Part shown: positions 22,015-23,244 of the stretch, one piece after another
How the letters are laid out: the number at the start of each line of letters is the position of its first letter
How positions within the stretch are numbered: the first letter of the stretch is position 1
Assembly (NCBI GenBank): GCA_020161015.1
Contig: JAIUOT010000001.1
Coordinates: forward strand, 1 to 38,329
Reading direction: 5' to 3'
From: Actinomycetota bacterium
GTDB taxonomy: Bacteria > Actinomycetota > Actinomycetes > Propionibacteriales > Propionibacteriaceae
DNA length: 38,329 bases
Notes under the pieces: generated by a model
Databases searched by the model: none
Told to the model about the DNA's origin: nothing
The model's input: only the letters and a program-made list of their open reading frames with translations
Made by a program: the position numbers and the translations under genes

Positions 22015-22307
22015 GCGTCCTCCGCCAGGATGCGCGGGACGCGGAAGCGCCCGTCCTCGACGGCGGGAGCGGCGGCCAGCACGGCGTCGCGGGCCAGCGA
22101 CGGCGTGACGACGTCCTCGCGGAACACGTTCGTCAACGGGAGTGCGTGGGAGGTCGGGGGGACGTCGGCCCCGGCCACCTCGGTCACCCGAGCGACCGAC
22201 TGGAGGATGACGTCCAGTTGCGGGGCCAGGCGGGCGAGTTCTTCATCGGTGAGCCGGATCCGGGCGAGTTCGCCGAGCCGGGCCACGTCGGCAGCGGTCA
22301 AAGCCAA
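22011..22307 (-). CDS. gatC: Asp/Glu-tRNA amidotransferase subunit C
   Basis: Small stabilising subunit of GatCAB, 98 residues. It has the family pattern [25 protein letters not shown] near the N-terminus and the C-terminal [12 protein letters not shown], which matches the conserved xxGxFxVPRVL ending. The start is TTG at 22307, preceded by AGGAG at a 6-7 nt distance. It heads the gatCAB operon; the upstream 316 nt hold a structured repeat array. Confidence 0.95.
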
Positions 22308-22368
22308 GGTGCACTCCTGTAGCGGGCACGGGGTTCCCCCCGCGGCGTCTCACTCTAGACGAGGAGTC

Positions 22369-22521
22369 AGTTCAGGCGCGCCAGCGCCTGAACTGCGACG
22401 AGTCTTGACGAGCGGTGAGGCACGAACCGCGAGGAACAGATGACGACGTCCCGTGGTCGCGTCAGCGACCGCGGGCGGAGGCATCTTGACGAGCGGTGAG
22501 GCACGAACCGCGCGGAACAGA
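22369..22521. repeat. Two tandem 72-nt structured repeat units
   Basis: Within the 316-nt gap 22308-22623 lie two units of identical layout. Each has an 11-bp perfect or near-perfect stem with a 4-nt loop, an 8-nt spacer and a 38-nt core. Unit 1 is 22369-22440: arms AGTTCAGGCGC and GCGCCTGAACT, loop GCCA, core 22403-22440. Unit 2 is 22450-22521: arms CCCGTGGTCGC and GCGACCGCGGG (one G-T pair), loop GTCA, core 22484-22521. The cores differ at one of 38 bases; each begins TCTTGACGAGCGG and contains its own small GCGGT/ACCGC stem. The stems differ in sequence yet both pair. A 13-nt direct repeat, AGACGAGGAGTCA, lies at 22357-22369 and 22519-22531. No other copy occurs in the window and no gene fits here. 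Confidence 0.85.
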
Positions 22522-22585
22522 CGAGGAGTCACGTCGTGAAGCCGGTGCCCCTGCGCGAAAATGCCCCCGCGATCCCCGGACCGGT

Positions 22586-22617
22586 TTGACACCCCTGTAA
22601 CACCGATAGGCCAGACT
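22586..22617 (+). promoter_or_regulatory. Weak promoter candidate for the ACT-domain gene
   Basis: TTGACA at 22586-22591 is a consensus -35 box. CAGACT at 22612-22617 ends 6 nt before the GTG at 22624 and resembles the leaderless -10 boxes seen elsewhere. The spacer between them is 20 nt, longer than the usual 16-18, so the pair may not act together. Confidence 0.3.
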
Positions 22618-22623
22618 GACCGC

Positions 22624-23244
22624 GTGTTCCTGATGCGTGTGGTCCTCCCCGACCGGCCCGGTTCCCTGGGTGCGGTCGCGACAGCCATGGGCACCGTGGG
22701 TGCCGACATCAACGCCGTGGAGATCGTGGAGAAGTACGAGGGCTACGCGATCGACGACTTCATGCTGGAGCTCCCGGCGGGGGCGGCTCCCGACTCGCTG
22801 ATCACGGCCTGCACGTCGGTGCAGGGGGTGGAGGTCGTCTGGCTGTCCCACTATCCCGAGGCGTGGGGCCTCCAGGCCGATGTCGACGTGCTGAACGCGA
22901 TGACCGAGGAGCCGGAGAAGGCAGAGGCGATCCTCACCCTCGAGGCGCCGGAGGTCTTCCGTGTCACCTGGGCGGTCCTGGTCGACCGGGTGAACCACCG
23001 CGTCCTGGCCCAGACCACGCTCGCCCCGGACCTGGACGACACCGGCATCCGGGCGCTGGGCGATCTCGACGCGGTGCGGGACGGCGAACTGCCCGACGGT
23101 TGGCTGCCCGGCTGGGGCGAGACCCTCATCGCCGTGGCGCCGTTCCGGAGCGATGCGAGCATCGTGCTCGCGCGGCGCGGGGGCCCGGAGTTCCTGAAGT
23201 CAGAGCTCGCCCGCCTGCGGCATCTCGCCGCGCTCGCCTTCTGA
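22624..23244 (+). CDS. ACT-domain amino-acid-binding protein
   Basis: A 206-residue protein with an N-terminal ACT domain (VFLMRVVLPDRPGSLGAVATAMGTVGADINAVEIV in the first 35 residues), the small-molecule-binding fold that senses amino acids in metabolic enzymes. The C-terminal half (about 95-206) has no enzyme signature that I recognise and may be a sensor or regulatory domain. Such proteins are found next to gatC and ligA in several actinobacterial genomes. The start is uncertain: GTG at 22624 keeps VFLM, and an ATG 9 nt later is possible. It is divergent from gatC across the repeat array and convergent with the small gene that follows, with 9 nt between stops. Confidence 0.82.
   Translation: MFLMRVVLPDRPGSLGAVATAMGTVGADINAVEIVEKYEGYAIDDFMLELPAGAAPDSLITACTSVQGVEVVWLSHYPEAWGLQADVDVLNAMTEEPEKAEAILTLEAPEVFRVTWAVLVDRVNHRVLAQTTLAPDLDDTGIRALGDLDAVRDGELPDGWLPGWGETLIAVAPFRSDASIVLARRGGPEFLKSELARLRHLAALAF

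Follow-up and report, generated by a model that had tools for sequence, protein, structure and literature searches.

The two structured repeats lying between gatC and an ACT-like gene in the window, i.e., the whole stretch of 38,329 nucleotides analysed from an Actinomycetota bacterium of the family Propionibacteriaceae, are members of what appears to be an undescribed family of small, folding DNA elements which, judged from sequence, seems restricted to a single genus. The explanation we consider moderately probable is that they are copies of a non-autonomous, REP-like mobile element, built of modular hairpins and moved by an enzyme that is not among the genes identified; the element is probably recognised as a single strand. 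Comparison with orthologous sites that lack the element shows it to be an insertion. Two suggestions of the preliminary description of this DNA are thereby strengthened, since empty orthologous sites and dispersal support a mobile or dispersed element, and stem covariation together with the strand asymmetry of GA loops supports selection on a hairpin in RNA or single-stranded DNA.

The locus (22357-22522) comprises two head-to-tail units with a start-to-start distance of 81 nt, each folding into hairpins A and B, with GA/GA internal loops (GA-C-GA ... GA-G-GA) at the base of both. The preliminary description had placed two repeats of 72 nt at 22369-22521; both are indeed there, but the unit starts at 22357 and measures about 81-85 nt. 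The 37/38 identity of the cores (22403-22440 and 22484-22521) was reproduced, as were the diverged 5' arms, AGTTCAGGCGC (from 22369) and CCCGTGGTCGC (from 22450), which match at just 4 of 11 positions while each pairs with its own partner, perfectly over 12 bp in unit 1 and with one G-T in unit 2. The single hairpin of the former layout corresponds to hairpin A; hairpin B (GCGGT/ACCGC), which lies within the core, and the GA ladder had been overlooked. Unit 1 (22357..22441, + strand) scored 95.3 bits (E 1.9e-19) with a first covariance model, made from 20 units, and 85.4 bits with a second model made from 99 matches, and unit 2 (22438..22522, + strand) scored 87.7 bits (E 1.3e-17) with the first model, both units being part of its seed alignment. 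Hairpin A of unit 1 (22357..22405, + strand), delimited by its 12-bp arms, the fold and the family pair counts, reads AGAC-GA-G-GA-stem-GCCA-stem-GA-C-GA-GTCT, the single pair between its GA steps being G-C and not C-G, and hairpin B (22407..22435, + strand), assigned by helix covariation in 122 distinct matches, reads GA-C-GA-GCGGT-GA-GGCAC-GA-ACCGC-GA-G-GA. In unit 2, hairpin A (22438..22486, + strand) is an AGAT/ATCT variant that also occurs in the orthologous element of congener G001 and whose U-A pair was found in 2 of the 20 seed units, and hairpin B (22488..22516, + strand) carries a single change relative to unit 1. A probable third module, eroded, would occupy 22519..22582 (+ strand) together with the array edge, the right boundary being approximate; it opens with AGACGAGGAGTCA as unit 1 does, after which the pattern is lost, and 22357-22369 and 22519-22531 form a 13-nt direct repeat; the assignment also draws on the empty sites of congeners.

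The region 22350-22540 folds with a z score of -6.75 on the + strand and -3.23 on the - strand, and for neither strand was any of 200 shuffles as good. In the minimum-energy fold of this region the cores of units 1 and 2 are paired to one another in place of two copies of hairpin B, whose assignment rests on covariation. The neighbours of the element are divergent: gatC on the - strand (22020..22307; PF02686, E 3.4e-21; putative TTG start at 22307, 3' end coordinate provisional) and the ACT-like gene on the + strand (22624..23244, putative start codon), whose match to PF01842 (E 3.1e-4) reaches 20.9 bits, under the curated cut-off of 27. On the gatC side, the hexamer TAGAGT (22352..22357, - strand), the putative -10-like element of gatC, has its T (the A at 22357 of the + strand) as the 5' edge of the insertion. 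On the other side, the -35-like TTGACA of the ACT-like gene (22586..22591, + strand), which is found in many empty sites, marks the right side of the insertion; a consensus scan called no promoter pair at this motif, nor any sigma-70-type pair in 22280-22660, and such scans miss other promoter types. Rho-independent terminators (a GC hairpin with a T-run) were not found in 22280-22660, and tRNA or tmRNA genes were not found in the window.

To describe the family, the 20 seed units, including the window's two, were taken from the loci of a DNA search and aligned by MAFFT, and the structure was set by hand. In the seed alignment 94.6% of cells were paired and 14 of 22 pairs showed two-sided changes, and none of 500 shuffles reached the observed value for one or the other; the covariation score was 0.316 in comparison to 0.126. 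The alignment of the 122 distinct matches, which unlike the seed alignment was fitted to the model and has a few weak matches inside, showed 91.7% of cells paired, two-sided changes at 21 of 22 pairs, and a covariation score of 0.408, in comparison to 0.121 when shuffled and no more than 0.064 when slid. The family form is AGAC-GA-C-GA-stem-GNNA-stem-GA-G-GA-GTCT for hairpin A and GA-C-GA-GCGGT-GA-GGNAC-GA-ACCGC-GA-G-GA for hairpin B, the latter also occurring as GNGGT-GA-GGNAC-GA-ACCNC and with plain stems. Both stems vary freely while the GA positions stay conserved, with per-position values of 0.84-0.97 (foot of hairpin B) and 0.62-0.91 (hairpin A); in hairpin A, 11 copies have G-C for C-G between the GA steps, and 34 have the next pair inward inverted. 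Among the 103 copies longer than 70 nt out of the best 118, the more stable strand was the + strand in 89 with RNA parameters and in 97 with DNA parameters, and GA/GA 2x2 loops numbered 141 in these 103 copies in comparison to 16 in 309 shuffles, an asymmetry between the strands that supports recognition of one folded strand.

The preliminary description had proposed to search for the core and for the layout, many copies with covarying stems being the sign of a structured family. The core as such was found just twice in its own genome at up to 3 mismatches, an outcome that the preliminary description had named as speaking against such a family; structure-based searches revealed that this is due to the sequence divergence of the further copies: the first model gave 9 copies at E<=0.01 and the second 10 at E<=1, eight of them strong. 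Across the genus, 16 of 30 genomes, the own genome included, had matches to the first model at E<=0.01, up to 31 per genome and one weak match apiece in several of the 16, and the stems of this dispersed family covary strongly; all copy counts are lower bounds, as scoring took only part of the candidates. A search of the family matched 15 of 198 genomes (14 in the genus and one weak match in another genus). Searches of the order (13 of 391 genomes, every one in the same genus) and of the phylum (1 of 396, the window's own) scored 11 candidates per genome under stricter filters, by which weak or single copies could be missed. A DNA search of 96 genomes of relatives had matches in 13, of which 10 belong to the genus; matches of 30-35 nt in three genomes of other families (G064, G075 and G092; E 3e-6 to 8.5e-4) were taken as chance. 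Exact-pattern matches in named genomes came from 14 stretches, all titled Propionibacteriaceae metagenome-assembled genomes. A viral origin was discarded: no exact pattern match was found in viral_contigs, and searches of phages and plasmids brought up nothing beyond matches of about 20-56 bases (best E 0.2 and 2). Rfam gave no match in the window at the gathering thresholds and none in 22300-22640 at E<=5. In the open-licence literature, no description of this repeat was among the matches listed, and the passages of a paper on a REP predictor (PMC12306157) contain one Propionibacteriaceae species in a table row and nothing on this repeat.

The gatC site was compared in 29 of the 30 genus genomes, those with a match to the ACT-like gene. 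By eye, the spacer between the two genes was occupied in 3 of the 29 loci (the own genome, G001 and G025); several others were compact and empty, reading TCTCACTCTACCGGTG..TTTGAC, and further genomes had longer or diverged spacers. CTCTA, the complement of part of the -10-like hexamer of gatC, is retained in several of the empty sites, which indicates that the window copy was inserted directly after it. At a second site, X, upstream of a gene for a metallo-beta-lactamase-fold protein (PF00753), 5 of the 24 loci compared were occupied, and the junction reads CCTA^TCGGAGACC (CCTA^TCGGAG) in the empty genome G002 and CCTA-[GAC...GAGTC]-TCGGAGACC in G001. The 5' junctions are exact at both sites, and right edges are often eroded. 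In a tree of the two flanking genes, occupied genomes had empty sisters at both sites, some of the support being low (0.50, 0.75). This patchy occupancy and the AGAT/ATCT variant shared by the own genome and G001 would require several precise losses or transfer, or else repeated insertion at the same spot. The gatC-site elements of these two genomes look old and vertically kept, which would be as compatible with a host function as with a selfish one. Separately, an old, degraded element was noticed in three species (L038, L067 and L166), flanked in each by one and the same pair of genes, and the reading frame adjoining the copy in the own genome seems to run through it.

For edges and gene context, the 129 matches were reduced to 98 arrays by merging tandem units and removing doubly fetched places, weak matches and some doubtful ones (L137, L046, L175, L176 and one of L178); one array (L074) belongs to another genus. 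We read 97 left and 84 right edges, 95 arrays for docking and 78 right ends for reading frames. The left edge reads NC[T/C]A followed across the junction by GAC. In 37 of 95 arrays the opposite strand carries a TANNNT hexamer aligned exactly with the 5' edge; an ORF starts no more than 60 nt away in 32 of these 37, and 17 have the ORF start 12-13 nt from the first base of the hexamer, a leaderless-like spacing; these counts include orthologous sites (at least 5 groups) and hence do not represent independent events. At the other end, GAGGA was followed by TCA in 15 of the 84 right ends read, and in 13 of these 15 the TCA is complementary to a TGA that ends an antisense frame of 100 open codons, in comparison to 6 of 44 ACA/GCA ends and 12 of 19 other ends open in the same register, and to 6 and 2 of the 15 TCA ends open in the other two frames. 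Where both neighbours were co-directional, the GA-bearing strand was antisense to both in 26 of the 98 arrays and sense to both in 7; of the other arrays, 20 lay between divergent and 15 between convergent genes, 20 fell within a called ORF, and 10 had no class. Genes were called by a simple GC3 rule, and the last two groups are unreliable. CTA and TCA should be scarce in such GC-rich DNA save in -10 hexamers and stop codons, and target choice alone may thus explain the orientation bias. Neighbouring genes include gatC, topA, hrcA, NAD kinase and undecaprenyl diphosphate synthase. At the hrcA promoter (L173 at ~1215-1240, L163 at ~8000 and L178 at ~5490) the element lies just upstream of a -10-like hexamer, which is followed by an inverted repeat, TGGCACTC...GAGTGCCA, that we take to be CIRCE-like. 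In two groups of related genes (L131, L044, L163:3688 and L178:1182; L128:1359 and L162:1220) the frame apparently ends about 20 nt inside the element, and the insertion may have replaced their C terminus.

Other palindromes serve as sites in the copy-rich genome G009, where 8 of the 23 arrays examined by eye were flanked, left and right, by the two halves of GATCCC-T-GAGCYTGTCGAAGGGTC or of a close variant. The intact palindrome, GATCCCNGAGCYTGTCGAAGGGTC, has 132 exact copies in this draft genome (e.g., L233-L235), and its variable base is T in 98 of 100 copies listed, in comparison to occupied palindromes, in which the base before GAC is A in 7 of 8 and G in 1 of 8; one target base thus appears to be replaced. 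Together with the eroded and variable right edges, this apparent replacement means that the moving unit is not fixed. A few other copies in G009 split GTCATCCCGGACTTGATCCGGGATC-like palindromes, and the genome also carries GTCATCCCGG...CCGGGATC repeats.

At some sites the A stem appears to have been replaced as a block. At orthologous sites, where flanks are mostly about 75-90% identical, A-stem identity was 0.51 in comparison to 0.43 for random pairs (24 pairs, not independent; for gatC the G001 unit was compared with unit 1 of the own genome and not with the closer unit 2, which lowers its identity), while ladder and linkers gave 0.90 in comparison to 0.76 and the B stem 0.76 in comparison to 0.46. 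Among eight neighbouring tandem pairs, the A stem was identical in 4 and 0.06-0.78 identical in 4.

In the mobile-element explanation, each module is a hairpin with a foot of GA/GA steps, presumably sheared G-A pairs; one A and one B module together give a unit of about 84 nt, several of which may follow one another head to tail. One strand would be recognised in its folded, single-stranded state, single-stranded DNA being likelier than RNA, and a putative nuclease or transposase would insert the element at short targets, namely -10 hexamers on their antisense side, stop codons and the palindromes of other REPs. The A stem would pass from copy to copy as one block, the GA ladder, which the enzyme would read, being retained. 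A more specific proposal, to which we give little credence, is that transcription guides the element: it would insert template-side where the RNA-polymerase bubble forks upstream, directly against the -10 hexamer, and into those stretches of extruded palindromes that are single-stranded, with the enzyme reading the GA ladder and not the stem sequence, so that the stems could be swapped.

A structured RNA family, cis-regulatory or small RNA, made from the GA-bearing + strand and binding a protein by its GA ladders like kink-turn cores, seems rather unlikely to us. Strong covariation with GA/GA loops is typical of RNA motifs, the + strand of the window copy folds well as RNA (z -6.75), and orthologous sites are occupied despite diverged stems; on the other hand, the + strand is antisense to both neighbours far more often than sense (26 arrays versus 7), the window copy lies between divergent genes, with no sigma-70-type promoter pair in 22280-22660 and no Rfam match at E<=5, and presence and absence at exact -10 edges would be odd for an RNA gene. 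The same bias of 26 to 7, the many arrays with a -10-like hexamer or an antisense stop codon right at their edge, and the housekeeping neighbours (gatC, topA, hrcA, NAD kinase, undecaprenyl diphosphate synthase) could instead speak for a host-domesticated spacer, acting on either strand as a terminator, insulator or mRNA stabiliser between the upstream stop codon and the downstream promoter. We assign this a low probability, since the window region has no T-run terminator, it is the strand not transcribed by these genes that retains the GA loops, most congeners lack the element at the gatC site (26 of 29) and at site X (19 of 24), and the target sequence alone could produce the orientation bias.

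The Y1 (RAYT/TIRYT) transposases of the genus were also considered as movers, as RAYTs are thought to move REPs. The Y1_Tnp domain (PF01797) was detected in 14 of 30 genus genomes, including 10 of the 12 with at least 4 element matches, a pattern that genome size and clade may confound, and according to passages of PMC8266576, TnpA-REP cleaves at CT or CA by a hairpin, which the edges of the element (CT/CC and CA) resemble; this would be a likeness only. It is nevertheless very doubtful that these enzymes move the element, since no Y1_Tnp was found in the own genome (9 matches) or in G009 (28 matches), draft assemblies being liable to miss multi-copy genes, four genomes with Y1 (G007, G008, G015 and G023) had no element match, and 21 Y1 loci, covered for about 1.5 kb on each side where the contig allowed, had no convincing element (best E 0.036) and were flanked by GGGGAC-type repeats unrelated to it. 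The transposases at these loci (L179-L199) are RAYT/TIRYT-like, mostly of about 255-280 amino acids, with GGGGAC-type inverted repeats adjoining, and several are multi-copy. Least credible of all, template switching in replication that copies arm onto arm (quasi-palindrome correction), with no selection on structure, could explain the fast concerted change of both arms and an A-stem identity at orthologous sites (0.51) near the random value (0.43), but such copying would erase the GA/GA mismatches, which are kept (0.84-0.97 in hairpin B, 0.62-0.91 in hairpin A) beside the G-C for C-G inversion in 11 copies and that of the pair just inside in 34, and this argues for selection on the fold.

Repeats of REP type are common; how transposase-less REP families arise and move is stated as an open question for CGTC REPs in passages of PMC3733652. 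The anatomy of the present family is clear, with a conserved non-canonical GA ladder, replaceable stems, empty orthologous sites and defined docking points, so that the recognised form and the missing enzyme are directly testable, and the family places an insertion immediately beside the -10-like hexamer in promoters of housekeeping genes.

Compared with the GTAG REPs, BIMEs and REPINs, in so far as passages on them describe these, the mobile element proposed here is alike in consisting of short, dispersed intergenic hairpins that are often clustered, have stop-codon termini and carry stem mismatches. A short palindromic hairpin repeated between genes, which is one mark of a GTAG REP, was found; GTAG termini often provide stop codons to flanking ORFs (passages of PMC3733652), and E. 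coli REPs require an unpaired bulge and have conserved mismatches in the stem (passages of PMC8266576). The element differs in its two unlike hairpins per unit, head-to-tail arrays, GA ladders and -10-like docking; GTAG is absent from the hairpin foot, the place of its first G being C in 64 of 97 left flanks and G in 5, and no RAYT gene flanked by the element was seen in the 21 Y1 loci. CGTC REPs, as passages of PMC3733652 describe them, are dispersed palindromes without a dedicated transposase, as is the element here, and the GTCATCCCGGACTTGATCCGGGATC-like palindromes that are its targets in G009 resemble them. The columns of the 122 matches do not fit the CGTC REP layout given there (5' CGTC, an AT-starting stem of 8-9 bp, a loop of 4-5 nt and a CCA tail): the folded strand lacks the 5' CGTC, the AT-starting stem and the CCA tail, the other strand of the element having a TCGTC at the 3' foot, and adjacent units stand head to tail and not as head-to-head dimers. 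The ends of IS200/IS605 and their non-autonomous derivatives (passages of PMC6006769) may share with the element the two hairpins, insertion at a short sequence, no target-site duplication seen and a single-strand logic; for a precise empty site, the 5' junctions of the element are exact, one target base seems replaced in G009, and right edges are often eroded. The target of the element is not a fixed tetranucleotide, no guide sequences were identified, and no hairpin-bracketed transposase gene was seen in the Y1 loci. The GGGGWSAS-type repeats described for TIRYTs (passages of PMC3733652 and PMC6006769) have look-alikes that share genomes with the element, are unrelated to it in sequence and flank Y1 genes. 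In general, the element works like one of REP type, yet departs from GTAG REPs in two defining features and from CGTC REPs in two others.
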